The notes under the pieces: generated by a model | Databases searched by the model: none | Seen by the model: the letters and a program-made list of their open reading frames with translations, nothing else | Told to the model about the DNA's origin: nothing | Translations under genes and position numbers: made by a program | NCBI GenBank assembly: GCA_037951105.1 | Contig: JBAMJV010004300.1 | Span: 124,001-188,000, forward strand | DNA from: Echinarachnius parma | Taxonomy: Eukaryota; Echinodermata; Echinoidea; Clypeasteroida; Echinarachniidae | Direction of reading: 5' to 3' | Length of the DNA stretch: 64,000 nt | In this document: positions 364 through 32,251 of the stretch, one piece after another | How the letters are laid out: each line of letters starts with the position of its first letter | How positions within the stretch are numbered: position 1 is the stretch's first letter

Positions 364-642
364 AAAGGGTTTCCGACACTGACCTGCGTAGGCTTGCAGA
401 TGCCATCGGAGACTGTTCCCGGTCCGCAGTGCTGGCTCAAGCGATTGGTCTGACCAGCGCAGACCTACGTCAACAAATTGAAGAGAAAGAACAGCAATCT
501 TATGGAAATGTCAAGGCCAAACCAACACTTGAATTGCTTCATGGCTTGGAGGATAAGAAGACAGCAACTCATCGATCAGTACTGAGGGAAAATCTAGCCA
601 GAGCAGGTCTAAAGAAACTGGCGAATTCACATCTTGGAGATG
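364..642 (+). CDS. Exon 1: Death domain 1
   Basis: The acceptor GGTACAG ends at 363 and the donor G|GTACTG follows 642; both ends are phase 1. The 93-codon module starts SDTDLRRLADAIGDC and contains the LGL-type helix 2 motif (AIGLTSADLRQQ), then LHGLEDKK and HRSVLRENLARAGL, the usual Death-domain helices 4-6. It is the first of a tandem series whose members share the signature LA..IG-C....L...LGL and the ending RS.L...L..AG. Confidence 0.8.
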
Positions 643-3600: not shown

Positions 3601-6600
3601 TAATGCAGTCCTAATCTTCTACTAAATTAAGCTCTTCAGTGCCAGCATGGATTAGTAAGAATTGTTTTATCCATAACATACGGCATAATTCATCACCCTC
3701 CAAATTTCTATGTAGATACTGCGTTTTTCCTTGGGGAAATCGATCACGCACCGTGTTTGGAGCATGTAACATGCATTATTCCATATTTAAAGTAACTTAA
3801 GACTTGATAAGAGAGGGCGCTCTTTATCATTTCAAAGTTTTGTTTTAACTCTAACTTATACACTTTTATAACAAATGTATCATTTTTGCGTGGTTAATGA
3901 ATACAATTCATGCTTCGTATTTTCTTTCATTGCGGAAATATGGGCCAATAAGTCCCTTTTTAAAGAAAAGTGTGACTCGCCTAGAGAGGGCGCTTTTTAA
4001 TTAATCAAACTTTTTTCCCTTTAAAGTATGTTAATAGTACATACAGAATATATATAACATAAGGCATAATTTAACACCCTCCGAATTTATATGTAGATAC
4101 TGCTTTTTTCCTTGGGGAAATCGGTCACGAACCATGGATTTTCCCAAAGTATCTACATTTTCATGAAAATCTCAAAATTAAACGGAAAATTCAATTGTTC
4201 ATGTATGAAGAAAAATAGACACCTATATAGCCTTTAATCACACACTTAAGATATCTTCACAAATTTATTATTTCCGAGCGGCTGTGGCAAAAACACAAAA
4301 GGGTCAATATCTCAGTTTCTAGAAAGCGCTGAATCGTGTAGATACTGCCTTTTTCCTTGGGACGGCAGTATAGTAGTTATCGATATTTTGAAATTGACTG
4401 TTTCCTTTTTCTCCAATACCCATCCTTGGGTGACATGAGAAATAAATAAATTTTATTCCATTTCATTTAATTTCATTTCATTCATTTCATTTCATTTCAT
4501 TTCCTATCATGCCCATTACTAGCCCGATCCTTCTTCGTTTTAGTCACCTTATCCTTATATTATCTGCCCTCCTACTCCCCATTCTATGTCCTACAATTAC
4601 TTCTTCAAATTCCCTTTTCTTCTTCTCATCCTTCTTCTTATCCCCCTCCTCCTCTTCCTTCTTCTTCTTCTTCTTCTTCTTCTTCTTCTTCTTCTTCTTC
4701 TTCTTCTTCTTCTTCTTCTTCTTCTTCTTCTTCTTCTTCTTCTTCTTCATTTTCTTATTCTTCCTGTTTTGTTCGCCTTTCTATTTTTGATAATGTTTAT
4801 TGTTTTCCATTGATGCTTCACTCCCTTTCCCTTTTCCCTACAACTTGTCTTCATTTTCTTCGTCTTCATTATTAATATTGTGTTGGCAGATACACATCAA
4901 ATCATCATTGAATTAACTGCTATAAATTGAATCATAATATACTTCAGCATATTATGTTATCAATCATTTAAAAAGCGAAATGGTTGATATCGTGTACTTC
5001 AGTGACGAATTATTATCAAGTTTGTTTCATTTATTGCGTTAAAAGATGCGAAACGAGCCTCTTCAAAAAATAAAGGCAAGAAAATCGACACCAAAGATGT
5101 CATCAAAACTGGCCAAGACATACTCCAACTGTTCAGCGTGAATCCAAGATTCAGGGGTACAAGAGTAGACGAGCTAATAAATCGGGCTAGGGAAGATGGA
5201 AAGAAACGCATGTCATCAAAAACTAAAACGCTTTTTAGTTCTTGGGAGCAAAACATCGAAAACCAACAGCTTGAGGCGGCCCTCCAAAGAATGGTAGAGA
5301 AAGGTAAGTTACTGGAAGTGAAGTCGATACTAATTTGGTGAATATATATATAAATACTGTATGAAATATTTTATCACGTTCATAACTGTCATCAAAAATT
5401 ACCATTTAGCATACTATCTTTCTTTGTCATCCATGGTCTTTCTTTGTCATCCATTAAAAAAACAGTTTCAGAAGAAGAACTGGATATGCTGGCGAAGGAA
5501 CTAGGAGACTGGCCACTTTGTGTGGTACTGATCCAAGAGCTTGGTCTTACTTCGGACAACGTACAGCTATGCATTAAAGGGACAAGGAAAAAACGCAAGA
5601 TCGATACACTTGATCTTCTTAACGACTGGACAAAGAAAACACATGGAAACCAACGACATGCGTTGCGTAAAGCACTTCGGAATGCAGGACTGGAAGAAAT
5701 AAGTAATTTCTATCTAGCAAATGGTAGGTTAGCAAAAATATAATGAATCAATTTCGTTATCGATATTTTGTTTATGCATTCTAATTGCATGATCTGTGTA
5801 TAACGACACAAAATACCGAATAAAGATTATCCGCTCTCAAAGGGAGGAAGATCCTGCTTAAGCGTATCCAAGGTTCATATAATATTGATTTAGATTACTT
5901 CTTTCTTTGTCTAGCTCCAATTGACTGTTCTACCCCAAAACAGCAACAAACATACAAGCAAACAAACAAACAAGAAACTTAACAACATGTCAGTCTGTTT
6001 TACAAACCGTGTCATTTTGATCCAACCCGCAGAAAATGTACCCGATGCGGATCTCCGGAAGCTTTCAAATACCATCGGAGATTGTACGAGGTCAACCCTG
6101 CTGCTACTTGAAATGGGGTTCAGTGTTATAGAAATCAAAACGCATTGCCTTAAAGATGGAGACTCCGTCGGTACAGATGGTATTGAACGACTTCTGAAGC
6201 AATGGACGGGACAATCGGAAGGGCAAGAAAGAACTCGGCTGTCGGATGTTCTGGAGAGGGCTGGACTCTCGCACCTGTCGAAAAGATACCTTCAACCAAG
6301 TAGGTTCTGGCATAGATCTGCTGAAGGTGATATTGCAAATATTACTTGGAGGAGGGTTGTGCAGGAATATACATTCTGCCGCCATAAACTAAATGTATAA
6401 CTTGCTTATCTACGCTAGTTATTTTATAATGTGTTTTCCATATACATTCATCATAAAATTTTGCCAAAAGGTAATAACGATTTGAAACATGTATTTTGTT
6501 ATCATGTTTGTCATGTTCTTAGATTCTTATAAATACTTAATTCATTTGGCCTTTTTTTCTTTTTGTCAAGTTACATGCGCAAATTGACTTTGAGAGAAAT

Positions 6601-9600
6601 TGCGCTACGATGGTCACTATTTTGTATTATATCCCCAAACACGTTCAAAACAGGTGTCGTTTCCAAAGATGAGTTGGAAAACATTGCCAAATCAGTCGGT
6701 GACTGTAGCAGATCGGCTCCACTTTTCATTGAGCTTGGGTTGAGAAAGACCGCTGCGGATTCTGGACAGACTTCATCAGCCAGCTCAACTCGGGCACTCC
6801 TGGAAAAATGGGTAAAGCAGCACGATGGGAACCAGCGCTCCAAACTTCAAGAAGTTCTTCAACAATTTGGGTTAGGAGATCTTGCAGAGAAACATTTGGG
6901 TATGTTTCAATATAATATAAGACTAAACAAATGTGATAGAGATCAAGTTACACGCATTGATTAAATATTATTGTGCTCTCCTTACTTAAGGCATAGCCTA
7001 TGTGAACTTACACCACAAAACGACCAATAAGTCTGTGGTAATGATTATGCTGATTGTCACATGACATTACAGTATAATTCATTACCTTTAAAATGGTTTA
7101 TAATTTTGTGATATTCAGACAAGGGCAACCCTCTAAAAATGAGCGCCAAAGATTTGGAAAATGGCTGAAGCAGTTTTAAAACAAGGGAGAAACACGCCAC
7201 TTCAAAGATCGGCGTTCATTCAAGCGCTGTAATCTGATAATTTGTATTCGATGACAAAACATGTCTGATGATCAAAGTTTCATAGAAGGTAGATTAAGAT
7301 GCCTTTATTTAGGAAAACAATTCTGAATCTCATACTTTTAATCAGATTTGACTAATCCAGCAAATAAATGAGAACTATATCCGCGACATAACGGTCATTT
7401 TGAGGTGTAAACTATAAGGTAACATATGATACATGTAATTGGCAAATAAGGAAGGGAATTATTTTGGTAACCAACTAAACCCCTCACAAACAGTTCCGCA
7501 ATTAAAGTTTAAGCGTTTATGTTTCTTCTATTACTTTATTACCGTTCATGAATCTGGGAGCATTGGAAAGCTTGTATTCTTCCCTTTACATTGATATGAC
7601 ATTTGTTATGACTAATGTGCATGACATCCGAATATGGGGCAAAGTCAAAAGTGAAATGTTGCAAAGTGCAGTAATATTGTAAACAGCGTCCCCTCTTTTG
7701 TTTGGGAGAATAAAGTGTTTTGAATGATGTTAAGTCGGTCATGCGTGAATGTCAATGGCGTATTATCATTTCTTTGGAAGATGGAATGTGTCTTAATGAT
7801 TTTGAAGGAGTGCAATAACGTTTTTGTATGTTGTTAGGAAGATGTATTGTGTTTTAGTGACTGATTGAGACATTATTATTATGTTTGATTTGTACAAAGA
7901 TTGTTGCAAAAAGTTCCGTAATTTAAGTTTGATCGTTCATATCTCTCCTATTACTTTATTACCGTTCATTATTTTGGTATCATTGGAAAGTTTTCACCTC
8001 TTTACATTGATATGACATTTGTTATGGATATCTTATCATGGAATGTGCATTACATCCAAATATGGGGCAAAGACAAAAGTGACATGTTGCAAAATGCATT
8101 GATATTGTCAATATGATTTTTCATGTAATTGGACGAATAAGTGATGTTTTTAATGATGTTGAGGCGAATCAGGCCATCATGCATGATGTCAATGACGTAT
8201 TATCATTTCCCCTGGAGGATGGAATGATTCTGAAGTGGTCATGAACACAATTATGCACTTTTCTGTTGTTTGGACAATGAAAATTGACGTTTGTACTGTA
8301 CTTTTGTGTAAATTTGTGTAAAAGTCAAACATAATGATAATTTCTCGATAGATCAATAAAACACATCACATCTTCCTACCAACATACACAAACGTTATTG
8401 CACCGCGTCAAATTCATAAAGACACATATCATCCTTCAAAGAAAACGTTAATACGCCATTGACATTCCCCCATGACCGACTAAACATCATTCAGAATACT
8501 TTATTCTCCCCAAAAATGCGGATACACTGTTGATAATATCAATGCGATTTGCAACATTTCACTTTTGACTTTGCCGCATATTCGGGTGTCATGCACATTC
8601 CATGATAAAGTATCCATAGCAAATGTCATATCAATCAATGTAAAGGGGGGGGGGGGGGTATAAGCTTTCCAATCATACCAAATTCATGTACGGTAATAAC
8701 GTAATAGGAGAGATATGAACGCTCAAACTTGAATTGCGGAACTTTTTGTGAGGGGTTTATTTTCAATGCAAGGTATTGATTATTTAGCCACTTATATAAT
8801 GGTTGATTAAATTTCTTTTGCAGAGAAAATTGAAAAGGACAAGTTGTCAAGTATAGCAAAGGCAATTGGAAACTGCAATCAGTGTTCAATGCTGGTGATG
8901 AACCCCAATCTTGGCCTCTCCCGAAACGACTTGACCACAATTACGACAGCCGGAGAAAATAACAAGAAATCGATCCTCGAAGTCTTGCAAGACTGGATGA
9001 AAAGGTCTAACCAAAAGCACCGGAGCAACCTACGACAAGCCCTAAAGGAAGCAGGATACGGACAAGCTGTTGTGGAGATCCTCGGGCAAGGTATATATTG
9101 CAAAGAAATATTTTAGATCAGAGGCGTCGATCCTGTGGGGGGGGGGGGGGGGGCAGATGTGGGGCGGGGGGAACAGTCGTATATAACAATCGTTCCCCCA
9201 CCCCCCCCCCTTCCCCCCCCCAAAAAAAAAATAATAAAAATAAATAAATAAAACAAATAAAAATAATAATAAATAAATAAATAAATAAATATGTACGCAG
9301 AATAATGTTTTTTTTTTTAAATAGATGGACTTTCTATTCCGATATACGGCTAAAACCCAAAATCCTAGTCATGATTAGTTTAGCATGAATAGTTTTCACT
9401 AGGTTTAATTAATCGTACTGTGTTAATAACTTTTAAGAATGTTTTTATTTGATACCACATTTCAAAAACTTTTTATGGCTACTGCTGGTCATTATGTATT
9501 TTTCACACTAATTTCCCTACCATGATGACATAACAAAATGTCAACACAGAGATTGTTTCCGAAAATGAGATTAAGGCTCTTGTAAGCAGCATAGGGGATC

Positions 9601-12600
9601 GCAAGAAACAAACATGTCTCGTCTATCACTTGGGCCTGACAAATTCGGACCTTGAGAAGCATTTGAAGAAGGTCGGGCTGAGATTCACTCTAGAAGACGC
9701 AACAAGAGCTCTCTTCCGTGATTGGACGGACAATGCGGGGGAGGAAAGTCGCTCCAAGTTTCGGCTAGAGTTAGAAGAGGCAGAATTTGGCCAAGTGGCT
9801 TCTACTCATCTTGGACCCGGTAAATAGAAGTACAATAATTACAAACACAAAATTATGCATGTGATGTTTTGTTGAAATAATGATTTAGTAGAGAGATCAT
9901 CAACAACTATTTAAAAACCTCTTTTGAACATTTTTGAAAAAGTGTAGGCCTAAGCATTTTTTAAATTAGTAAAAGAATCATCGAATAAATCTGGGGCCCA
10001 GATTTATTCCGATCTGATATAGCCATTTCCGAACCGATGTTGATCAAATAAAGTTGATTCTGTCATTATAAAGGGGTAGTATAGTTGTTTTGTAAGGATT
10101 GAGCTTTAGTAACGTGAACCTGCACAATAACATTACAAACTAATAGTTATAACTCCACCATGCTCGCAGAGTATAACAAATTACAAACGACTAAGTGAAA
10201 AGCCTGTTACCATTCAAAAAGAGCCATTAAAACACAAGAGGGTGCTCTCTAAAAAGGCATTGGTTTCAACCATTTTCATACAAAATTGTGCATGTGATGT
10301 TTTGTTGAAATAATTATTAAAGGGACTTAGGGCAGGTTTCGGTTTTTCAATTTCCCTTTCGGATATTTACGATTGAAGTGTTCAGATGTTCAATAATCCA
10401 ACGGATCGCGAAAACCGTGTACAAAGTGAGTGCAATGAGTTTGTGAACATCTCTTTGCATTTTCGCTCATTATTCGGCCATATAACGTCCATTTGACTTG
10501 AAATTTTCACTCAATACCCTGTGAACATATCAGATAACAACAATATATTTTGTACTAACCATTCATCACTTTTTGCACATGTCAACAAAGTTACTAGATC
10601 CCTTTAAAGGGATAGTTGAGTAATGGTACATGTATATATAGCGGGCGCTACACAAAATATGTTTTTGAGTGTCAAATTCGAAAGAGCATACAATGACAAA
10701 ATTCAGAAAAGGCTGAAATACCAATAACATGAGTCATTACATGACCATTTGTAATAATTGTGGTTCCCCACAATTATTCGATAATTTTGAACAAGCCATT
10801 AATTTTGTTTTTTTAAATGCTTCCACTTTTCAAAAAATTACAAAGGAGGTTTTTAAATAGTTGTTGATTATCTCTCTGTTATAATCACTATTTCAACAAA
10901 ACATCACATGCACTATATCTTATTTAAAATGGTTGATACCAATGAGATTTTAGAGAGTGCACTTTTGAGTTTTAATGGCTCTTTTGTAATGATACCAGGC
11001 TTTTTACTTAGTCATTTGTAATTTGTTTATTTATTGCGGGCATGGTAGAGTTATAAATATTAGTTTGTAATGTAATGGTGAAGGTTTTGGTTACTTAAAT
11101 TCAGTTTTACCAAAACTGTACTCTCTTTACCGAAACTCAAAGAGATCATCAACAACTAAACACAACAAAAAAGTAACCCCCCCCCCCCTAATCAAAATAG
11201 CGTGACTTTTTAAAGGGAGAGATCCACTTTTGCAAGCCAAAATTCAAAAGTTGCGAGGTTATTGTCTTATATGAAAGGAAATGTCATTTAAGGGGAGATC
11301 ACTAACAGAAACATGTTTTTTTAAAGTAAGCATTGTAATATCACTTCACATATACCAAAAGTTAATATGGATGGAGTTTAGTAAAAAACAGTGACAAATT
11401 TAACCACGCCCTCTACGGTTGCCATGGTAACGGCGGCCATCTTGTATTTTCAATGCGGTTTTCCTGCAGCCATATCTCAGCCGTAATTCAATATTTTTTC
11501 ATCAAACAAATTGTAAATGGTAGTTAATAACTATGTTTACAATTCTACAGAGCCTTTTTCCATATTTCTTTAGAGAAGTATGGGTAGCAAGCTGAAAAGT
11601 CTGAAAATGCCCAAAATCGGCATTTTGGTATTACGTAATAGCACGTCGGACGCAAAAAAAAGTGAAATTTAAAATTTCGCTCTGACTAAATGTAGTACAT
11701 ACAGTTGCCAATAGCTGTGCCAAATATCACCTTAAAATAACATTCCTATACTGAGATATCGCTGCATCAAAATGCATTGTGGTGGAAAATGCACATTGTC
11801 AGAAAAAGCCATTTAAAGTCAACGTTAAAAAAACAACTCGTTCACTTTCAATACACAAGGTGCTTACATTGATTTATGCATACTTTTTAATTCACAGCTT
11901 ATTTATGAGGCAATCTGAACTTAGGTGAATCATTTTCACAGAGAAAATAAGCATCTTACATGGTATTTAATACATAATGATGAAAATAATGAACAATAAG
12001 GCCTGAAAATGTTGTGTACATGCACGTGAACATACAGTATACAATACTTGCAACACAGTAATTGTATGGTAAATGTAGTAACTTCCAAGTTCAATCTAAA
12101 AAAAACATTCATTGTACTGCATGTACATGTTTGTACACATGTCTACATTATATGCATTGAATACATTTTAGTTGTATCATTTGAAGGCAGTACTGTTTGA
12201 AGAAAATGAGGAAAAAAGTTTCATGATCTCCAACATGTTTTCTTCTTACATTAGTCAATCCACCTTTTCTCTGTTGTCTAGTAGAGTGCTTCAACTTCTG
12301 TTTAGCTGGTTTAGGAGAAAAAGCTTATTATCAATATCAGTGTCACTGTTGTCTGAAGTTTCTTGACGATTGTCCTCCATTTTACACTCCAAAATGCAAT
12401 ATTATTCCACTTATCACTCCACAGATGACTCCTTTGTCTTGTTATGAATTATTTCAGCAAAGAATATGCAAAATATCAGTCCAAATATTGAAGAATGGAA
12501 ACAGTGCTATAGCATTGTAGTATGAATGATCAACAAGTGATTAGCCTACATGTGCATGTGTTTACTACACCTCACCGTTTCACCTGGTCATATGACCTTA

Positions 12601-27600: not shown

Positions 27601-30600
27601 TCCTGCGTGAGCTTTTCATGAGTACTTATGCCGACAAAAAGTACGAGCTGTACACAAACTGGCCCACTCCAGGCTCTTGGATTCCATTCTCTGTCATTGA
27701 AGGACAGCTCGACGTTGGGCTCTGTCTTGGTGGACATAAAGTAAATTTGAATGATGTCAGAGTCTTGCTTGGTATGTACAATTCTTTCAAGTTATATTAT
27801 TTATATTATCATAGTGTTAGAGCATGCATGTAAAAGTTAACGACATATGATTCGTTCAACGTCAATGAAAGCCAAACTAAGATCAATTAGTTGTCAAAGT
27901 TAAAAAAAGAAAAGGAAAACCAAACAAAAACTTTGATATTGTGCTATGTTATTTTGTTATGCTGATAAACGAAATTTTGGTGGCAGTACATAAACAAGTT
28001 TAAAGCCCATAAAATAAATATTTACCATGACCTTTTAGGAGAACAAGCTAATAAAAACCAATCATAATGTTATACTTGCCATTTCTCTTTCCTGTTGGAA
28101 GGTGGAAGAAGGAAAATCACCGTATCGGTGTGCAGCTCAGCACAGGAGGTCAATGTACAAGGTCTCATCGCTTTCCTCAAAGACCAGAATAACCCATTGG
28201 TGAAGGGGGTCAGGTTCCATCAGCTTCCCTACAACAAGATTGAGGACCACCACTTCTCCCCAAAGGACAATCCAATGGATGTTATGATTCTATGTCACTC
28301 TATCAACAACAGGCGGTTCGCCGTCACAGACGTCCTGGACGCCTTGTATAACGAGTACCTACCATACTGCAAGAGTGTCCTAGGTAAACTAAACAGTAAT
28401 GATCCTAACATGTTGGAACTGTTGCTACTCCTTCAATTTGAGCATCTAAACAAAATATAGAATATTTGTATGGATAGCTGCAACGTATTGAAGATGTTGA
28501 ATATCACACCATGATTTAATTAAAGCTGTGGATTTTCTATAGCGTATTATGATGTGTAGCGGTTTCCAATAGTCTCAATATTTGTATGCGGAAAGCTTGC
28601 ATATATGGCATAATTATACTCTAAAGGGATCTAGTAACTTTGTTGACACGTTACAAATTGATGAGTGGTTGATACTATGTCCACTGGGTGTTGTGTGAAA
28701 TTGTCAAGTTTAATAAATGGCCGTTATCTGGCCGAGTAATGAACAAAAATGCAACAGTGATATTTACTCTGAAATTGTTTGTGTGTGTTACATTTATCCT
28801 CATCCGTCTATTGGAAACTGTTCAGAAAAATTTCAAAACGCGGAAACTCAATAGGGATAGTACATTTTCGGTCAACCAGATTAGAGTAATTAAAAACTTG
28901 TAAATTATCATTAAAAATGAACAATTAAACCTTAATACCAATATAATACATTTGTGGATTTTCAGTTTCTAAACGGATTGTTATATAAAGTTGATTATAT
29001 CATTACAATTCCCATTGCGCTTACTTTGTGCACGGTTTTCGCGGTCTAGTGGATAATCTAACATCTTAACACTTCAATCGTAAAGATCTTTTTGACGAAA
29101 GGGATATTTGAGCAAATGAAACCTGTCCCATTCTTTTATTATTCATAGGAAAACAACAATTTATTAGGGAACCGCTAGAATTCCAATTGGATTTCGAGGA
29201 TTTGGACAATGTTAGTAAGTCCAAATATCGCGTTCTAGTTGGAGACAGGAGTTATACATTTATATCCTTTTACATTTCAGTTATTATATCCTACAGTGCT
29301 ACTTCATTCATTCCTTGCTTTCTTTCTTTCAGGGCAAGACAAAGTTGGGCTGATCGCCCACGATTTCGACAAAACAAGCGAGGCGGTGAACGAAGTGCGG
29401 ATGGTGTCATTCAGGCACAGGCAGCCTACGGCTTTCCAAGAGGCGGGTATTGTGTTCACGTGTGGTCAACTCTCGGAGAAGCAACCTGAGATACTGCCGG
29501 CAGATAAGGAGAAGCTGCTGGCGTTCATCGACCGAGCCGCTCGATGTCAGGAAGAGCTGAAGGTAGACAACAATGGGTATACCTTCTGCGTTCCGAGTGA
29601 GGGGGAGAGCGGGAGTGGAAATACTGCCCTACATAATCCGGCTGGTGTGTATGACTAAGTAGTTTCCTATGCTCAAAATGTAATTATTTTGTTTGACCTT
29701 GTAGGATTTACTTGTTCTATGGAATATTTCAATCCTTTTTTTTGGGGGGGGGGGGGGGGGAATTGTATTACGAGCTCATACTACATGTAATATAATATAC
29801 AATATTTGTCTGACATGTCTGATTGAGTATACGTGAAATGCACGTGTAACTCATGAGAATCAAGGAACCGTCATGGAAGTGCCGTCAACGTACTTGAATG
29901 TTTAAATACACACAAATGTAAACATTCAAAGTACCGTGTATGTACTTCACCTAACCTGTCTATGTGACTATCCAATTTGATCAAACATTCTTTCATGTTC
30001 TTGCAGCTCCAGATCAGACACAAAACCCGCTTCCAGAGAAAGAGTCGTCCAACAAAAGAGTCAAAGCCACACGTGGATCACAAGAGTCACAGAAAAGTGA
30101 TGTTGGTAAACCAGAAAGAAATGCAGGGGCTAGAACCAAAGGGAAATACCAAAAACTGGCTGAAATCCCCCTTGTAGTCAAAGTTCCCCAAGAGACCTCA
30201 CCTTCCCAAGAAATAGAACAAGAACCGCTGCGAAAAATCTCAGTCACCGTTTGTACCATGTCCAAAATAAACAAGGTTCAAAGACTTCTAGCGCACCTGG
30301 AAGATCAAAAACAACTCGTCAAAGAGGTCCACTTCATCCAGCTTCCGAAGAAGAAAAGACACCTGGATACCTTCGAGTGTCCTGACCAGGATTCGTCTGA
30401 TGTACTGCTGCTGTGCCACTCCGTCAAGAAGAAAGGGATCCCAAAGTCACAGTACAATTCCTTCCTTGCAAAACAGAAAGAATCTGGTAAGATGTTGTTG
30501 CCTAACGAAAACCTACCGATATAATCATCAACTTCATGAGTCGATTTTATAGTAATAACATACAAAATTGCATTCTGGTTGTGAAATGTTATTGTTCTGT

Positions 30601-32251
30601 ACTTACTGACTAGTGTTTTTCTTTGTATATGCACAAACGCACGCTCGCCTCGTCGTTCTGTGGGAATATAAGTTTAATATGACACATTTTTTTAAAATTT
30701 CGTTATATCGAATTATGGATACAAAATACAGAACAAAACGTAAACTTTTCAATCAAATGAAATTCATCTGTATAAATGTTTATATTCCAGGAAAGAAGCT
30801 TGCCATAATTGCTCACAATTTGAAAACATTTTGGATAAAAAAACGTCAACGTGGTCAAGAGAATAAACTGAGATCATCAGATGCGTTTAAGGAGGCTGGG
30901 AAAGCTCTGATATGCGGAAAACTTCAGAGTGGAGAAAAGGATCAAGAGGATTTTGCCGAATTCGACAAATTTCTTCTTGAGGCATCGCTGGAGCCTAAGG
31001 AGGAGACTGCAGAGTTGCGAGCAAATGACCAAGGTCCATCGAAAGACACCGAACGTCAAAATGTATCTCAAATAGCTTCTGCGTCTGAAAAGAAAGGTAA
31101 CATGCTTCAGCTTAACTTTACATTGTTAATATATTACAATTTGTTTCTTAAGTATGTAGAGAGCATTTTGAAACAAGTTCTTTGAAGCTTTTAAGCTAAT
31201 ATTTTTGTTTTGATACACGTCTGATATTTGAAATCCTGTTAATTAATGATCCATGCTTTTATTGGTGATGGATTATTTTTCTCAAAGACCGTTGTTCCTT
31301 TCTTATCTAGATGTAAATTTGCCGGGGGCATCATCAAATGTATCGCAAAAGCATGGGTACACGTCTAGTTCCCACCAAGTATCACTGCCGTCCAGGACTG
31401 CCATGATGAGTGGTAGACGTATTTCCATCGCCATCTGTACATCGTCCACCAAGAACAACGTGGAGGCTCTGATCACACGGTTGCGATTGGATTCCCAGCT
31501 GCAGAACATCAAAGCTGATGTAGTCTTCCAGCAGCTACCTTATAGTGACCTTGACGATTTCAGGTTTACGGATAAGGCCTATGACGTCATGGTGTTGTGT
31601 CACTCGATTCACAACAGGGGGTTCACCATTACGGACGTAATGGGCGCTATCTACAACGACTATCTGAAGTACTGTTACAAGACATTCGGTAAGTAACGGA
31701 CTACGTATACGGTACCCTTTCAACAGATGTACATAATAAAACAAATTTGCGCGCAAGTGCGTTGAGTAATATAGGAAGACTATCTTAAAGCTTGTTTAAT
31801 TATTTCTGAATATTATGCTCTCAATTTGAAATGGTGACATTTTGAATGGGGACACCGATACAGATGTATTTGATTTTATAAGATAAGTTGTTTTTTTGCT
31901 TTATTGGACCCTATCTAAATTTACAGTGGAAGTATTACATAGCCAAAACTTGCCATGGGAACGTGTTTTTACGATATTATTCTGATCTGCTGACAATCAC
32001 CAAAAATCCTTCTAATCACCGTATCATTATCTACAGGAAAGAGGAAGTTAGCGGTGATCGCCCACGACTTCGAAAAGTCTAACCCAGGTATCAACGAAGC
32101 CCGAATGGATTCATTCAAGTTGCGACAGCCTTCGACATTCGAGCTGGTGGATACAGTGCTCGTTGCCGGTAGTCTTCGGAAAGGACCGGACATTGCAGAC
32201 GGTGACTGGAAGAGGCTGGTGGAATTTTGCCAGCGCGCGAGTCAGTTATAA
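364..32251 (+). CDS. Multi-Death-domain Roc-COR-like protein, 29 exons, 5' partial
   Basis: Whole-gene entry; the exons are listed separately. Joining the 29 exons gives about 6.06 kb of coding sequence in one frame, about 2,020 codons, ending at TAA 32249-32251. Order of domains: eight Death-domain-like modules (364-9819), a Roc-like GTPase fold (14513-21370), a COR-like region (23429-27771), then three copies of an unnamed alpha/beta module (28102-32251). Death domains bind other Death domains in apoptotic and innate immune complexes, and Roc-COR units normally act as GTP-regulated dimers. Here the P-loop is degenerate, so a scaffold role is more likely than a GTPase role (inference). No start codon or promoter is visible; the window begins TG|GTAAC, which could be the donor of a preceding exon. 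No clear poly(A) signal was seen close after the stop. Closest idea by architecture is an invertebrate ROCO/MFHAS1-like protein. No name can be given safely. Confidence 0.85.
838..1046. mobile_element. Short MITE with 17-bp inverted ends, in intron 1
   Basis: Ends are GGGGCTATATCCACTTT (838-854) and its exact reverse complement AAAGTGGATATAGCCCC (1030-1046), 209 bp in all. It has no coding capacity and lies between Death-domain exons 1 and 2. The target duplication is unclear. Confidence 0.7.
1265..1534 (+). CDS. Exon 2: Death domain 2
   Basis: The acceptor GCGACAG ends at 1264 and the donor G|GTAATT follows 1534; phase 1-1, 270 nt. The module reads AVSWTEISRLAEAIGNC, then LLLLELGLTTDEVKKC, then DLLATWAKKNPSNQRS, closing with LQDALEKTNIPELQSI. 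The conserved Trp of helix 5 (ATW) and the NQRS turn are shared with the other modules. This is a clear Death domain. Confidence 0.85.
1590..4503 (+). mobile_element. 3' end of a non-LTR retrotransposon (LINE), interrupted
   Basis: An open frame through about 1590-2234 encodes the carboxy end of a LINE reverse transcriptase protein: GPSKKLSQVIYALLKQ, KTGMSYLWND, and a zinc-knuckle-like CPRCDQQ...YHYLFECP, then a short tail ending NLAKFC. The frame runs directly out of the intron that follows exon 2. The 3' UTR runs to 2573, is interrupted by another element (2574-4368), and resumes at 4373, ending in AATAAATAAA and a TTCAT-type simple repeat (about 4458-4503), a usual LINE tail. The copy is 5' truncated and inert. 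Confidence 0.8.
2574..4368. mobile_element. 1.8-kb inverted-repeat DNA element with TATA duplication
   Basis: The left end CTGCCCTCCCAAGGAAA matches the reverse complement of the right end, TTTCCTTGGGACGGCAG, with one mismatch. TATA flanks both sides (2570-2573 and 4369-4372). The inner motif AAGCAGTATCTAC and its reverse recur inside, near 2596, 2727, 2766, 3712, 4093 and 4338, so the ends are built from repeated subterminal units. Only short frames are present and no transposase is recognised. It sits in the 3' UTR of the LINE. Confidence 0.7.
4642..4749. repeat. (CTT)n microsatellite, about 105 bp
   Basis: A nearly uninterrupted CTT/TTC run of about 30 or more units in the intron before exon 3. 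The long Phe, Leu or Lys frames across it are artefacts of the repeat. Confidence 0.95.
5046..5303 (+). CDS. Exon 3: divergent Death-domain-like module 3
   Basis: The acceptor GTTAAAAG ends at 5045 after a T-rich tract and the donor G|GTAAGT follows 5303; phase 1-1, 258 nt. A basic start (AKRASSKNKGKK) leads to DILQLFSVNPRFRGTRVDEL, REDGKKRMSSKT, LFSSWEQ and LEAALQRMVEKG. Spacing of LF...RVDELINRA and LFSSW fits Death-domain helices, but the IG-C signature of the other modules is missing. The identification as a Death domain is less certain than for its neighbours; the exon itself looks sound. Confidence 0.65.
5466..5723 (+). CDS. Exon 4: Death domain 4
   Basis: Acceptor AAAACAG ends at 5465; a second AG at 5471 would also keep phase 1 and remove two codons. 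Donor G|GTAGGT follows 5723. The module reads VSEEELDMLAKELGDWPLC, then IQELGLTSDNVQLC, LLNDWTKKTHGNQR and ALRKALRNAGLEEI. It has the helix 1-2 Trp typical of Death domains (GDW), where the other modules have Cys. Confidence 0.85.
6033..6299 (+). CDS. Exon 5: Death domain 5
   Basis: Acceptor CCCGCAG ends at 6032 and donor GTAGGT begins at 6300; phase 1-1. The module reads VPDADLRKLSNTIGDCTRS, LLLEMGFSVIEIKTHC, RLLKQWTGQSEGQERTRL and LERAGLSHLSKRYL. Order and spacing match Death domains 1, 2 and 4. Confidence 0.85.
6654..6899 (+). CDS. Exon 6: Death domain 6
   Basis: Acceptor AAAACAG ends at 6653 and donor GTATGT begins at 6900; phase 1-1, 246 nt, the shortest module. It reads VVSKDELENIAKSVGDCSRS, LFIELGLRKTAA, ALLEKWVKQHDGNQRSKL and LQQFGLGDLAEKHLG. 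A serine-rich stretch (SGQTSSASST) replaces the helix 3 region. Confidence 0.85.
7119..7229 (+). pseudogene. Decayed Death-domain exon between modules 6 and 7
   Basis: After an acceptor-like ATATTCAG (ends 7118) a phase-1 frame reads DKGNPLKMSAKDLEN, matching the start of exon 6 (VVSKDELENIAK), then hits TGA. In a shifted frame the sequence continues as KMAEAVLKQGRNTPLQ and RSAFIQAL, the helix 5-6 end of the module, then TAA. The middle of the domain is missing. I read this as a former Death-domain exon with an internal deletion and frame shift; it is probably skipped. Confidence 0.5.
7476..8759. mobile_element. 1.3-kb foldback element, three copies of one arm
   Basis: The ends TAAACCCCTCACAAA (7476) and TTTGTGAGGGGTTTA (ending 8759) are inverted, and the arms stay alike for about 300 bases (7476-7790 against 8440-8759). 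A third copy of the arm lies in direct orientation at about 7910-8110. Arms share TATTACTTTATTACCGTTCA and TTGATATGACATTTGTTATG. No protein is recognised. Its right end is only 64 bases from the acceptor of exon 7. A G-run sits at about 8646-8658. Confidence 0.7.
8824..9090 (+). CDS. Exon 7: Death domain 7
   Basis: Acceptor CTTTTGCAG ends at 8823 and donor G|GTATAT follows 9090; phase 1-1. The module reads IEKDKLSSIAKAIGNCNQC, NPNLGLSRNDLTTI, VLQDWMKRSNQKHRSNL and LKEAGYGQAVVEILG. Strong match to the shared signature. Confidence 0.85.
9119..9300. repeat. hAT-end-like fragment with G/C runs and AAAT simple repeat
   Basis: CAGAGGCGTCGATCCTGTGG at 9120 resembles the end of the hAT-like element at 44975 (CAGGGGTGTCGATCCTGGGG). 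Long G and C runs and an A-rich (AAAT)n tract to about 9290 follow. A relic only. Confidence 0.45.
9550..9819 (+). CDS. Exon 8: Death domain 8
   Basis: Acceptor AACACAG ends at 9549 and donor GTAAAT begins at 9820; phase 1-1, 270 nt. The module reads VSENEIKALVSSIGDRKK, YHLGLTNSDLEKHL, ALFRDWTDNAGEESRSKF and LEEAEFGQVASTHLG. It is the last module before a 4.7-kb intron and the Roc-like region. Confidence 0.85.
9836..10320. repeat. Degraded copies of the GGGCCC-centred MITE family
   Basis: Two fragments share the family words CATGTGATGTTTTGTTGAAA and GAGAGATCATCAACAACTAT, with the centre AATCTGGGGCCCAGATTT at about 9990. They match the full copy at 33923-34458 in reverse orientation. Confidence 0.7.
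10321..10603. mobile_element. MITE of the AGGGACTTAGTAAC family, TTAA flanked
   Basis: It starts AGGGACTTAGG after TTAA (10317-10320) and ends CAAAGTTACTAGATCCCT before TTAA (10604-10607). The same family occurs at 24507-24976 and 58235-58612. Its right-hand TTAA is also the left TTAA of the next MITE, so the two abut. Confidence 0.7.
10608..11140. mobile_element. GGGCCC-centred MITE family, copy in intron 8
   Basis: It starts after TTAA with AGGGATAGTTGAG and holds the centre AATTGTGGTTCCCCACAATT, a nearly perfect palindrome, and the inner words CATCACATGCAC and GGCATGGTAGAGTTATAA. The right end is worn. Confidence 0.65.
11214..13648. mobile_element. TTAA-flanked inverted-repeat element, split by a second element
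   Basis: Left end AGGGAGAGATCCACTTTTGC and right end (reversed) AGGGACAGGTCCACTTTTAC are flanked by TTAA at 11210-11213 and 13649-13652. A longer relative lies at 18564-19970 and a reversed one at 21576-23140. Compared with the 18.6-kb copy this one lacks about 790 internal bases and carries an 1,814-bp insertion (11292-13105). No transposase is seen. Confidence 0.75.
11292..13105. mobile_element. 1.8-kb TTAA-target element nested in another element
   Basis: Ends GGGGAGATCACTAA and TTAGTGATCTCCCC form a 14-bp perfect inverted repeat. TTAA precedes (11288-11291) and follows (13106-13109). The related copy at about 18640 reads GTCATTTAATAGCATGCC without interruption, which is exactly the empty site. 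The TTAA duplication is the hallmark of piggyBac and Kolobok elements. Only short frames occur, so it is non-autonomous. Confidence 0.85.
13938..14408. repeat. MITE remnant with a 173-bp tandem duplication
   Basis: AAATGATCAGTATTGTGAGT occurs at about 13958 and again at about 14131, followed each time by the same 170 or so bases, including the GGGCCC-type centre (TGGGGCCCAGATTTAT; TGTGGCCCAGATTTAT in copy two). The right end CTGAACTACCCCTTTAA belongs to the GGGCCC-centred MITE family. Confidence 0.7.
14513..14666 (+). CDS. Exon 9: start of Roc-like region with degenerate P-loop
   Basis: Acceptor TTCTGACAG ends at 14512 (phase 1); donor AAG|GTGTTT follows 14666 (phase 2). It encodes DPLDVLFEEKWES, then KRNQLMIFEHIGYGTTSLKK and LLTG. 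Strand, loop and helix pattern match the Roc G1 site, whose consensus is GxxxxGK[S/T]. Here the first Gly is Glu and the Lys is Thr (E-H-I-G-Y-G-T-T). Loss of this lysine normally abolishes tight nucleotide phosphate binding. The donor is weak, but phase 2 joins exactly to the next exon. Confidence 0.75.
14675..14880 (+). repeat. Possible LINE 3' tail with (ATCT)n
   Basis: The stretch ends TGTCAATAAAAACCGATATA followed by three ATCT units, the form of a retroposon 3' end. No coding part remains. Confidence 0.35.
14960..15805. repeat. Two worn copies of the GGGCCC-centred MITE family
   Basis: The family words AATTTTGAACCAGCCGTTAA, CATCACATGCACAATATTTT and TTTAACGGCTCTTTTTGAAT occur in order at 14975-15190. 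A second copy runs from about 15340 to CCAAAACTGTACTATCCCTT ending near 15806. Confidence 0.65.
15948..16048 (+). CDS. Exon 10: Roc-like region
   Basis: Acceptor ATGCCCAG ends at 15947 (phase 2); donor G|GTACCA follows 16048 (phase 1). It encodes GSPSVIASERFEATGGNKDW and LIDTRDIKLRIK. This is the stretch after the P-loop helix where switch I would lie; no clear switch motif is seen. Confidence 0.7.
16424..16479 (+). CDS. Exon 11: Roc-like region, micro-exon
   Basis: Acceptor CTCCAACAG ends at 16423 (phase 1); donor GTAAGA begins at 16480 (phase 0). The 56-nt exon encodes DEHSLEVADESFKILRGIL and fits in frame between exons 10 and 12. Confidence 0.65.
16695..16767 (+). CDS. Exon 12: Roc-like region (3' end ambiguous)
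   Basis: Acceptor TTTCAACAG ends at 16694, phase 0. It encodes KDRGKMINVKTRSPILDIK and then SVGGR if donor GAG|GTATTT (after 16767) is used. With the next exon's strongest acceptor that donor gives a stop after five codons. Donor GTCAGT after 16750 (phase 2) with acceptor 17551, or donor 16767 with a weaker acceptor at 17556, both keep the frame; they differ by four codons. Confidence 0.55.
17080..17405. repeat. GGGCCC-centred MITE family, worn copy
   Basis: It contains AATGTGATATTTGGTTAAAA, GAGAGATCATTACTCATCAA and a TAATATCCCTTTAA end, all forms of the family words. It lies in the intron before exon 13. Confidence 0.5.
17552..17604 (+). CDS. Exon 13: Roc-like region (5' end ambiguous)
   Basis: The acceptor GTTTTGCAG ends at 17551; an alternative AG ends at 17556. 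The required frame reads MDVKQWTLKTMVNYL and ends in phase 1 at donor G|GTAATT. See exon 12 for the two compatible splice pairings. Confidence 0.55.
17763..17899 (+). CDS. Exon 14: Roc-like region before switch II
   Basis: Acceptor CTTGTCACAG ends at 17762 (phase 1); donor AAG|GTGAAT follows 17899 (phase 0). It encodes DPRALLKVLIKRRYKKPIDG, VDEADTLDIIDCHVDK and VSCITDK. The last residues lie where Roc domains carry DxAGQ just before a YH motif; here no DxxG can be read. Confidence 0.7.
17980..18420. repeat. GGGCCC-centred MITE family, worn copy
   Basis: It contains GGATATTTCAGCCGTTTCTG, GAACCAATTTTGATGAATCA and TGTGAAATAATG family words in order, without clear ends. Confidence 0.5.
18564..19970. 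mobile_element. Fuller copy of the TTAA-flanked 1.4-kb element
   Basis: Ends AGGGAGAGATCCTCTTTTGC and (reversed) AGGGACAGGTCCACTTTTAC are flanked by TTAA at 18560-18563 and 19971-19974. It gives the uninterrupted form of the sites used by the nested insertion at 11292-13105. It includes the short palindrome CCCGCGGATTTCCGTGGG. No transposase frame was seen. Confidence 0.75.
20645..20731 (+). CDS. Exon 15: Roc-like region, YH strand
   Basis: Acceptor TTATACAG ends at 20644 and donor GAG|GTGAGG follows 20731; phase 0-0. It encodes AYHAFMTCRTIYLIRVDVDK then RDQGVRDKE. The YH..F.. ..IYL...D pattern is the strand after switch II in Roc domains (YH..F....YLLV.D). Confidence 0.75.
21224..21370 (+). 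CDS. Exon 16: Roc-like region, G4 position
   Basis: Acceptor CTTCCCAG ends at 21223 and donor GAG|GTAAAG follows 21370; phase 0-0, 49 codons. It encodes LKSIHRCLSLIHSKTS and KKPVILVATLDGDKAQNE. The second stretch matches the Roc G4 strand (PVILVGTHxD), with ATLDGD replacing THxD. Together with the P-loop loss this suggests a pseudo-GTPase. Confidence 0.75.
21576..23140. mobile_element. Reversed copy of the TTAA-flanked family with a nested element
   Basis: TTAA at 21572-21575 precedes AGGGAGTGTCCGCTTTATAA; the right end is GCAAAAGGCGGACACTCC. Inner words such as TTAGCATAATATTGTACTAA and CTCCACGAAAATGAGATTTC match the 18.6-kb copy in reverse. A 971-bp element sits inside at 21733-22703. Confidence 0.65.
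21733..22703. mobile_element. TA-target inverted-repeat element nested in the previous one
   Basis: Ends CTCCGCAAAAAAAGAAACAG and (reversed) CTCCACATAAAAAGAAACAG match at 17 of 20 bases and continue into GACAC. TA flanks both sides (21731-21732, 22704-22705), as in Tc1/mariner-type elements. No transposase remains. Confidence 0.7.
23429..23530 (+). CDS. Exon 17: Roc-COR junction
   Basis: Acceptor GTTAACAG ends at 23428 and donor GTG|GTAAGT follows 23530; phase 0-0. It encodes CVKGVLEKLIRDLQRTPYGH then LVNEEGYVVSDINV, the helix and short strand that usually precede the COR domain. Confidence 0.7.
23980..24150 (+). CDS. Exon 18: COR-like domain, first part
   Basis: Acceptor ATCATTTAG ends at 23979 and donor AAG|GTTAAG follows 24150; phase 0-0, 57 codons. 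It contains KPLEIPLRWRLFEQQTAEQF, matching the IP..W...E motif at the start of COR domains. The other open frame across it is a shadow. Confidence 0.75.
24507..24976. mobile_element. MITE of the AGGGACTTAGTAAC family
   Basis: It starts AGGGATCTAGTAACATTGTC after TTAA (24503-24506) and ends TTTCTAGATCCTT before TTAA (24977-24980). Inner words such as TTTACGATTGAAGTGTTCGG match the copies at 10321 and 58235. Confidence 0.7.
25043..25222 (+). CDS. Exon 19: COR-like domain, middle
   Basis: Acceptor TTTGCCAG ends at 25042 and donor CAG|GTAATT follows 25222; phase 0-0, 60 codons. It encodes EDDLKKMLAFYHDCGRIYYV and RRNELVILNRHVLLQVLQKI. COR domains have the same order: a helix, a G.I.Y strand, then VILDPQWL-like sequence. 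Here NRHVL stands in that place. Confidence 0.8.
25295..25460. repeat. Hairpin element with tRNA T-loop-like arms
   Basis: TAGGGCTTCCCTGGGATTCG (from about 25314) and GGGTTCGAATCCCAGGGAAA (25420-25439) form inverted arms that extend outward in weaker form for about 45 bases. GGTTCGAATCC is identical to a tRNA B-box/T-loop consensus. The whole does not fold as a tRNA gene; it could be a SINE-derived foldback. Confidence 0.45.
25881..26193 (+). CDS. Exon 20: COR-like domain, second half
   Basis: Acceptor TATTTTAAG ends at 25880; donor G|GTAATT follows 26193 (phase 0-1). It encodes AEDGVIEQPSLKFALGKALP, CVQELQDIMVAVGLIG and STLFLIPCPISEQSP. The order G(V/I)..., a helix L..LM...GL, then F.IPC.L is that of COR-B. 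A small coding tandem repeat, CTCAGCATG three times, gives AQHAQHAH. Confidence 0.8.
26414..26565 (+). CDS. Exon 21: post-COR beta-rich region
   Basis: Acceptor TTCAACAG ends at 26413 (phase 1); donor CAG|GTAAGG follows 26565 (phase 0). It encodes DFRDFKFVSKLVSQLPVHSV and QVTWILTGGQKVMLYILPSG. Alternating hydrophobic strands fit the beta sheet that closes ROCO proteins of the MFHAS1 kind. Confidence 0.75.
27261..27326 (+). CDS. Exon 22: post-COR linker
   Basis: Acceptor TATTTTAAG ends at 27260 and donor CAG|GTATTA follows 27326; phase 0-0. It encodes VAISREETEGKRTPPDGPL then VKQ. Confidence 0.65.
27579..27771 (+). CDS. Exon 23: end of COR-like region
   Basis: Acceptor CATCCGCAG ends at 27578 (phase 0); donor G|GTATGT follows 27771 (phase 1). 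It encodes LKDGLDKILRELFMSTYADK, WPTPGSWIPFSVIEGQ and GLCLGGHKVNLNDVRVLL. CLGGHKV resembles the C.. ..CG.H end seen in ROCO C-termini. Confidence 0.75.
28102..28383 (+). CDS. Exon 24: alpha/beta module copy 1, half A
   Basis: Acceptor GTTGGAAG ends at 28101 and donor G|GTAAAC follows 28383; phase 1-1. It encodes RRKITVSVCSSAQEV (strand 1), RFHQLPYNKIED, then MDVMILCHSINNRRFAVTDV (strand 3 and helix) and LYNEYLPYC. The pattern recurs in exons 26 and 28. I do not recognise the family; a Rossmann or flavodoxin-like fold is inferred from the strand and helix order. Confidence 0.75.
28620..29110. repeat. Pieces of two TTAA-family MITEs in intron 24
   Basis: AAAGGGATCTAGTAACTTTG (28623) and, reversed, ACTTCAATCGTAAAGATCTT (29069) are parts of the AGGGACTTAGTAAC family. 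Between them CATCCGTCTATTGGAAACTG (28801) belongs to the 18.6-kb family and TTCTAAACGGATTG to the GGGCCC family. A composite of fragments. Confidence 0.5.
29333..29644 (+). CDS. Exon 25: alpha/beta module copy 1, half B, plus linker
   Basis: Acceptor CTTTCTTTCAG ends at 29332 and donor G|GTGTGT follows 29644; phase 1-1. It encodes GQDKVGLIAHDFDKTSEAV, VSFRHRQPTAFQEAGIVFTC, a terminal helix (KLLAFIDRAARCQEEL) and a Gly/Ser-rich linker. The IAHDF strand and RQP..F motif recur in exon 29. Confidence 0.75.
30007..30486 (+). CDS. Exon 26: charged linker and module copy 2, half A
   Basis: Acceptor TCTTGCAG ends at 30006 and donor G|GTAAGA follows 30486; phase 1-1, 480 nt. The first 75 or so residues are Lys/Glu/Ser/Gln-rich and look disordered. 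Module half A follows: LRKISVTVCTMSKINKVQ, VHFIQLPKKKRHLD and SSDVLLLCHSVKKKG. This copy has diverged; the NR after CHSI is gone and the helix is shortened. Confidence 0.8.
30791..31096 (+). CDS. Exon 27: module copy 2, half B, plus linker
   Basis: Acceptor TATTCCAG ends at 30790 and donor G|GTAACA follows 31096; phase 1-1. It encodes GKKLAIIAHNLKTFW, FKEAGKALICGKLQSGEK and EFDKFLLEASLEP, then a Glu-rich linker. AHDF has become AHNL and the RQP motif is missing, so this copy is the most divergent. Confidence 0.8.
31311..31688 (+). CDS. Exon 28: module copy 3, half A
   Basis: Acceptor TTATCTAG ends at 31310 and donor G|GTAAGT follows 31688; phase 1-1. After a Ser-rich start it encodes GRRISIAICTSSTKNNVEAL, VVFQQLPYSDLDDF and YDVMVLCHSIHNRGFTITDV, then IYNDYLKYC. 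It is much closer to copy 1 than to copy 2. Confidence 0.85.
32037..32251 (+). CDS. Exon 29: module copy 3, half B, and stop
   Basis: Acceptor TATCTACAG ends at 32036, phase 1. It encodes GKRKLAVIAHDFEKSN, MDSFKLRQPSTFELVDTVLV and DWKRLVEFCQRASQL, then TAA (32249-32251). The gene ends with the terminal helix of the third module. Confidence 0.85.

Follow-up and report, generated by a model that had tools for sequence, protein, structure and literature searches.

At a probability of roughly 0.5, our main reading of the locus is that the predicted gene A encodes a multivalent Death-domain scaffold with three C-terminal modules and a core that is derived from Roc-COR and has no P-loop, and that the protein would likely act in cell-death or innate-immune signalling. 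This reading is based on predicted exons and their homologies. Gene A begins with a start exon, which is followed by eleven Death-like exons, the Roc-COR region, and three C-terminal modules of two exons each. The window, by which we mean the whole stretch of 64,000 bp that was analysed, comprises positions 124001-188000 on the forward strand of contig C4298 (263,233 bp) in a genome assembly of 1.2 Gb and 14,790 contigs. Its edge cuts the gene, which spans from about 5.1 kb upstream (start exon at -5091) to position 32251. Coordinates are those of the window unless a contig is named, negative numbers denote positions upstream of window position 1 on the same contig, and all exons of gene A are on the forward strand. 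The same order of 11 Death exons, Roc, COR, and three modules is found in a paralogue, B, on contig C4298, and it is kept, where probed, by five further copies on three other contigs, in which the Death arrays were partly seen. The single multi-Death protein with a Roc/COR-derived core that an initial annotation of the window had proposed is thus well supported by its repetition in B and, as far as probed, in the five copies.

All 31 identified exons of gene A are open and have legal splice borders, and all junctions but one are phase-compatible. The initial annotation had described 29 phase-compatible exons; 27 exons are supported in the window as an open chain, but this chain contains one phase gap between 14666 and 16424. 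The gap must hold a further short exon after the P-loop exon. Three phase combinations tried in this interval gave no convincing pair, and the equivalent exon was not found in B either. The start exon (-5091 to -5070) contributes 7 N-terminal residues and was located by its similarity to the start exon of B (30 bp at 87%, E 0.011). It reads MASTRTR in gene A and MASRGQPT in B, and has a phase-1 donor in both. Because the gene begins at -5091, the start at 364 that had been given before is an effect of the window edge. The stop codon is the TAA at 32249-32251. The product would be one large protein, probably cytosolic, with a length of about 2,200 residues or more; gene A may also be split into two genes or be alternatively spliced.

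The Death exons were located with our own HMM, built from ten of them, in a six-frame search of the 263,233 bp of the contig. The search gave 28 matches at E <= 1, all on the forward strand. One of these is a lone match at 84203 (E 0.84), and the other 27 (E <= 0.005) form three clusters, namely A with 11 matches (-2910 to 9824), C with 5 (63.9-70.6 kb), and B with 11 (96.9-108.1 kb). The eight Death-like modules noted earlier are all present in the window, but the gene has eleven in total, each open, bounded by AG and GT, and of phase 1-1. The three upstream exons are D1 (-2882 to -2664), D2 (-1909 to -1643), and D3 (-243 to 2), the last of which ends at window base 2. With our own profile, D4 (364-642) and D5 (1265-1534) both score 102.9 bits, D7 (5466-5723) 110.1 bits, D8 (6033-6299) 108.3 bits, and D11 (9550-9819) 105.9 bits. 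The most divergent exon is D6 (5046-5303) with 15.9 bits and E 0.006, which is open, of phase 1-1, and absent from the Pfam Death list. D9 (6654-6899) and D10 (8824-9090) complete the array. D4, D9, D10, and D11 are reciprocal best matches of B4, B9, B10, and B11, respectively. Cluster C (C4298:187890-194617, window 63890-70617) is a third set of Death exons, B-like but partial and decayed; its B1-like exon is shortened, and a stop lies between 69870 and 69874.

The P-loop, Roc, and COR exons of gene A pair with exons of B in order in a pairwise search. The G1/P-loop exon of Roc (14513-14666) is eroded, lacks the Walker A lysine, and matches the B exon 108697-108859 at E 2e-7; its start phase is equal in A and B, and its donor was put at the same point by eye. 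Two weakly supported Roc exons follow, both with phases predicted separately in A and B. These are R2 (16424-16479, phase 2/0), whose similarity is weak and was judged by eye and whose candidate counterpart 113496-113551 is not the best pair in the A-B exon pairing, and R3 (16695-16767, phase 0/1), whose pairing with B 114037-114109 scores only 20. R4 in the G3 region (17763-17899; separate prediction, phase 2/0) pairs with B from 114676 onwards (score 42), R5 (20645-20731; separate prediction, phase 0/0) with B from 115336 onwards (score 33), and R6 in the G4 region (21224-21370) with B from 115895 onwards (score 35), where the separate prediction split the B exon. C1 (23429-23530; separate prediction, phase 0/0) lies between Roc and COR and pairs with B from 117487 onwards (score 47). 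The COR exons are C2 (23980-24150; B 118065-118178, score 66), for which phase 0/0 was preset and which is absent from the separate prediction of A, the COR-A exon C3 (25043-25222; B 118481-118648, score 78), whose ends come from the separate prediction and whose B counterpart has COR-A at the cut-off, and C4 (25881-26181; B 119326-119587, score 54). The 3' border of C4 is uncertain, since donors of all three phases score about equal and the one chosen is in phase with C5. After COR follow C5 (26414-26565; B 120356-120507, score 40, phase 2/0 in A and B), C6 (27261-27326; B 120761-120835, score 48, phase 0/0 in A and B), and C7 (27579-27771; B 121711-121915, score 57, phase 0/1), for which a start at 27555 is equal in score. 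For R2 to R5, C1, C3, C5, and C6, the separate predictions for A and B agree on the phase; R6, C2, C4, and C7 either had their phase preset in the pairing or were predicted differently in one of the two genes.

The spliced region of B matches Pfam COR-A with 35.3 bits (E 1.3e-8, profile positions 21-143), which is borderline as it lies exactly at the cut-off of 35.3, while Pfam Roc reaches 25.3 and 23.3 bits in B-type sequences, under its cut-off of 27. The best match of this region among solved structures is the Roc domain of LRRK2 (E 6e-5 over the entire sequence and 0.026 for its best-matching piece), to which the P-loop, a middle stretch, and the G4 stretch are aligned in order; the B stretch paired with R5 falls into the aligned segment. 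Checking Death, Roc, and COR against Pfam, as the initial annotation had suggested, leaves gene A itself under the cut-offs (Death 22.0 bits against 22.6, COR-A 13.2 against 35.3, and Roc absent from the list), but the Death exons match by profile-profile comparison (P 1.7e-7) and the COR exons pair with those of B. Because gene A is below the Pfam cut-offs, its assignment rests on paralogue B and on the profile-profile comparison. NACHT and NB-ARC were not listed by the domain scan of the pieces scanned, which speaks against membership in the NLR or Apaf-1 families. Kinase and ankyrin had no match in the pieces scanned either, and the start exon of gene A leads into Death exons, which is not DAPK1-like.

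A query with the Roc/COR exons of the B-type gave 26 matches and revealed five copies that share one order of P-loop, COR, and linker exons, namely B itself on C4298, two copies on C1013, and one each on C4502 and C8620. In all five, Death exons precede the P-loop exon, as found with a query of five Death exons (44 matches), which also gave further matches on C12159 (two) and C1893 (one). A second A-type copy is present on C1013; its Death exons lie at 183.6-197.0 kb, its Roc/COR exons between 198.9 and 241.1 kb, and its modules start at 241.3 kb. One B-type copy on C1013 may be a haplotype of B, as the two share 97% identity over 2.5 kb. For gene A, C1013 was also considered as the other haplotype of C4298. 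This was dropped, as C1013:209-214 kb gave no collinear match to gene A, whose identity to the copy at 241 kb is about 80-86%. In the second A-type copy D4 is broken (C1013:184230-184513), with two matches in different frames, one of which contains a TAG.

The two types differ in their P-loop. The motif GPTGVGKT is present in all five B-type copies, whereas neither of the two A-type copies, gene A and that on C1013, has a Walker A motif. The B-type paralogue has the features of a ROCO protein, a Roc domain with P-loop and a COR domain directly after it (the COR being borderline). In gene A, the Roc domain is without P-loop because the Walker A lysine is gone. As the P-loop is kept in the B-type and lost in the A-type, we call the B-type genes ROCO proteins and gene A a ROCO-derived pseudo-GTPase. 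The best reading of the sequences is therefore a pseudo-GTPase in gene A and a putative GTP switch in B.

The lost P-loop might also mean that gene A is a decaying copy that no longer works, and that its Roc domain is broken for this reason. The poor scores of the Roc-COR region of gene A, the broken partial copy further right with its stop between 69870 and 69874, and the frame-broken D4 of the A-type copy on C1013 would fit such decay. However, each of the 31 identified exons of gene A is open, and the P-loop is gone from both A-type copies, as would be expected for an inherited pseudo-GTPase subfamily. In addition, the coding sequence is constrained. Comparing six Death exons between gene A and the A-type copy on C1013 gave dS 0.188, dN 0.090, and an omega of 0.48 (chi-square P 5e-5), with D4 contributing 55 codons only and single-exon omegas ranging from 0.34 to 1.09. 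For example, D7 is 85% identical at the amino acid level (omega 0.44), D8 76% (omega 0.34), and D9 83% (omega 0.74). The module exons have an omega of 0.34 over five exon stretches between A and B, a value that comes from a different pair and is thus not strictly comparable to the 0.48. The Death exons and module exons sampled are constrained coding sequence. We therefore regard a decaying gene A as rather unlikely, although it deserves some weight, and continue with gene A as a working scaffold with a pseudo-GTPase core.

Whether the repeats are Death domains is a separate question. None of the eight exons in the window passes the Pfam Death cut-off (PF00531, 22.6 bits), and Pfam Death is listed for three of the eight at E <= 1, which are D10 with 22.0 bits, D9 with 20.4 bits, and D5 with a sub-threshold 16 bits. 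Among 21 Death exons of A and B, Pfam Death is the commonest family, listed for eight at E <= 1 (best 1.4e-4). A search of the Death profile against solved structures gave nothing significant, and the two best matches are by their titles not Death domains. The top ranks (E 0.048 to 0.18) are taken by two proteins, which from their names we take to be designed, and by THO complex subunit 1; the Death domains of CRADD, PIDD, and IRAK3 come next with E 0.46 to 0.62. Because the single exons are sub-threshold in Pfam and the structure search was not significant, a profile-profile comparison was used. With hhalign, the profile of the 21 exons matches five canonical Death sequences from this genome, among which are two with 99% identity, with a probability of 93.8 and P 1.7e-7 over 61 columns, while the control comparison with the C-terminal module gave a probability of 0.1. 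In the reverse search, our own Death HMM found four of eight canonical Death loci at E 0.01 (E 2e-4 to 3e-3) and missed the other four. Thus, the exons belong to the Death domains by profile homology to canonical members, but not by the Pfam cut-off.

The Death exons of A and B also correspond in position. Six of seven reciprocal best pairs are at the same ordinal position, which was reached in 5 of 200,000 shuffles, the off-diagonal pair being A5-B2, and the collinear score of the two arrays was reached in 1 of 5,000 shuffles. A tree of the Death exons contains same-position sister pairs at positions 1, 2, 4, 9, 10, and 11, and in addition the pairs A3-B7, A5-B6, and A7-B8. The same-position pairs indicate that the array of 11 Death exons was probably present before A and B split, while the middle positions are not clearly matched. 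At the DNA level, collinear similarity between A and B is found only at the 3' end (28.1-33.9 kb, 68-91%), where it includes stretches of introns; elsewhere the alignments are mostly stretches that recur at several places. This restriction to the 3' end suggests that the module part has been exchanged or converted recently and that the Death and Roc parts are old.

It has to be considered that the repeats are Death-derived helical bundles that serve as a spacer or rod and not as functional Death domains. In favour of this, no exon of the window exceeds the Pfam cut-off, and the designed proteins rank above CRADD, PIDD, and IRAK3 with their E-values of 0.46 to 0.62. However, the match between the Death profile and that of canonical Death domains (P 1.7e-7), the predominance of Pfam Death among the families listed for the 21 exons, and the separate identities that several positions have kept, which a plain spacer would not need, make a mere rod unlikely, and we prefer functional Death domains in a multivalent scaffold. 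Finally, it is quite improbable that gene A comprises two genes that are always adjacent, one with the Death exons up to D11 and the other with the ROCO and module exons from near the P-loop exon onwards, because despite the 4.7 kb between D11 (9819) and the P-loop exon (14513) and a stop at the third codon past the D11 donor when read through, the D11 donor and the acceptor of the P-loop exon are compatible in phase in A, a reading that fits B too, and all six other copies that were probed, namely B and the five further ones, have Death exons before their P-loop exon. Given the position of this stop, a short form with retained intron is conceivable.

The triplicated C-terminal module that had been seen in the window stands as described, with three copies of two phase-1 exons each, the last ending in the TAA, and three copies in B as well. 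The exons of module 1 are at 28102-28383 (86% amino acid identity to B, omega 0.21) and 29333-29644 (83% amino acid identity over 29335-29559, omega 0.31). Those of module 2, which has a charged linker in front of its first exon, are at 30007-30486 (75% amino acid identity over 30222-30485, omega 0.59) and 30791-31096 (69% identical over 30781-30996), and those of module 3 at 31311-31688 (78% amino acid identity over 31412-31687, omega 0.38) and 32037-32251 (90% amino acid identity over 32039-32239, omega 0.21), the latter including the stop codon. No significant match to the module was obtained in solved structures (best E 0.55 for the profile and 0.43 for a single sequence), Pfam, PADLOC (best E 0.027), or phage genomes; in Pfam, no family was matched by more than one of nine module members (best E 0.021). 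Within its own genome, the best 150 of 255 candidate exon matches to module copy 1 are distributed over at least 57 contigs, A and B included. Having no library match but many genomic copies, the module represents a family of its own. On C4298 there are no module exons at E 1e-3 outside A and B. Three of the at least 57 module contigs are shared with the 99 COR-A contigs, and among the matches listed the 57 module contigs overlap with none of 123 Pfam Death contigs and none of 92 NACHT contigs, although such an overlap is a rough test. A further ROCO-like gene at C1013:381001-394000 has a COR-A exon at 387358 (33.9 bits, cut-off 35.3) and then a module at 392111.

The usual account of Death-domain signalling involves proteins that have one or two Death domains and assemble into helices. 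The Death array of gene A would act as a multivalent platform, where other Death-domain proteins, or further copies of the same protein, assemble by homotypic contacts. Several Death positions would have distinct partners, which we propose because several positions have kept their identity since the split of A and B. The Roc-COR part would dimerise the protein, controlled by GTP in the B-type and constitutively or passively in the A-type, and the C-terminal modules would either detect or bind a trigger or else produce the output. A large set of adaptor domains of weak similarity, combined with a dimerising core and a repeated C-terminal module, fits a multivalent platform, and the multivalent scaffold of the initial annotation was fairly drawn. 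The pathway is likely cell-death or innate-immune signalling, of which we infer the immune role. More speculatively, and doubtful at present, the protein could be an addressable platform whose different positions recruit different partners in a fixed order, with GTP-switched B-type and GTP-blind A-type versions coexisting and with the C-terminal module, independently expanded, as a possible new immune sensor or effector. A chain of eleven Death domains joined covalently, in which several are conserved individually, would allow testing how stoichiometry and order are set. With A and B, a version of one scaffold that is putatively switched by GTP can be compared with one whose switch is dead, and the searches revealed no known relative of the module, a domain family of many copies in this genome.

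The combination of Roc-COR and Death domains in one protein is already known from DAPK1, which has the order kinase, ankyrin repeats, Roc, COR, and Death. As far as the accessible parts of the literature tell, the Death domain of DAPK1 is at the C-terminus (PMC6337361), and in known ROCO proteins the oligomeric state is linked to the nucleotide (PMC6337361). DAPK1 thus resembles A and B in joining Roc-COR and a Death domain. However, it carries a kinase, ankyrin repeats, and a single C-terminal Death domain, whereas gene A has eleven N-terminal Death exons and a C-terminal module for which no known family was found. ROCO proteins with CARD or Death domains are described from Trichoplax (PMC4104024) and ROCO proteins with TIR or MyD88-like parts from Aplysia (PMC9334734). 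Like A and B, these are invertebrate ROCO cores that have been shuffled with death-fold or TIR adaptors, but the accessible parts of both papers mention neither a tandem Death array nor a triplicated C-terminal module (PMC4104024, PMC9334734). Given such ROCO proteins with Death domains (DAPK1, PMC6337361; Trichoplax, PMC4104024, both as far as accessible), calling the locus an undescribed system, as had been done, is too strong.

Similar designs exist with other building blocks, again according to the accessible parts of the sources. The LRR-ROCO genes of brown algae have one repeat per exon, with LRR exons of 72 bp and phase 2 (PMC11378527). They resemble A and B as a multigene family with N-terminal repeats in same-phase exons before Roc-COR, but these genes are non-animal and their 72-bp phase-2 exons encode LRRs, whereas phase-1 exons encode Death domains here. 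Lineage-specific expansions of TRADD-N/Death proteins have been reported in marine invertebrates, echinoderms included, together with a discussion of inactive NTPase switches (PMC8195603). Their expanded and rearranged Death-like architectures are similar to those of the A/B family (PMC8195603). However, one to three Death-like domains are described there in sponge proteins, and a Roc-COR core with a long Death array is not mentioned in the accessible part (PMC8195603). Apaf-1-like proteins with double Death repeats (PMC2246300) combine, as A and B, an NTPase switch with repeated Death domains, but this switch is NB-ARC next to two Death domains, and Roc-COR takes its place here (PMC2246300). 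A literature search, in which few subscription papers were covered, turned up neither a ROCO core with a long Death array nor this module. What appears to be new is the array of eleven Death domains on a ROCO core together with a C-terminal module for which no known family was found; the combination of Death and Roc-COR was known already.

The ROCO and NLR-like repertoires of this genome are large. In the whole assembly, 118 COR-A exon matches were found on 99 contigs, and for NACHT the best 99 of 608 candidate matches were scored. The Roc profile gave 145 matches genome-wide, which likely include other small GTPases. Among the matches listed, at least six contigs have Pfam Death together with NACHT, and at least five have Death together with COR-A. 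The many COR-A and NACHT matches fit the expansion of death-fold and NTPase genes in marine invertebrates, as described in the accessible part of PMC8195603. The mitochondrial COX1 frame on contig C14600 uses TGA as a sense codon, has one AAA codon at a position where COX1 carries asparagine (FPRMN-N-MSFWL), four AGA codons read as serine, of which at least one is at a serine position of COX1, and ATA at isoleucine positions. This pattern agrees with the mitochondrial code of echinoderms and flatworms, and together with the rich Death and NACHT repertoire it makes an echinoderm the likelier host.

The surroundings of gene A contain repetitive sequence. A 323-bp unit is repeated in tandem at 42297-43941 (5.1 copies with 94% matches), within a G+C-richer stretch at 38-46 kb. 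An open frame with a Cys/His segment in the intron between D5 and D6 (1560-2234) resembles, by eye, the end of a retrotransposon reverse transcriptase. Upstream of gene A, at -17984 to -12761, a pair of neighbouring long open frames, one a CCHC frame and the other an endonuclease/reverse transcriptase frame, has by eye the appearance of a non-LTR retrotransposon.
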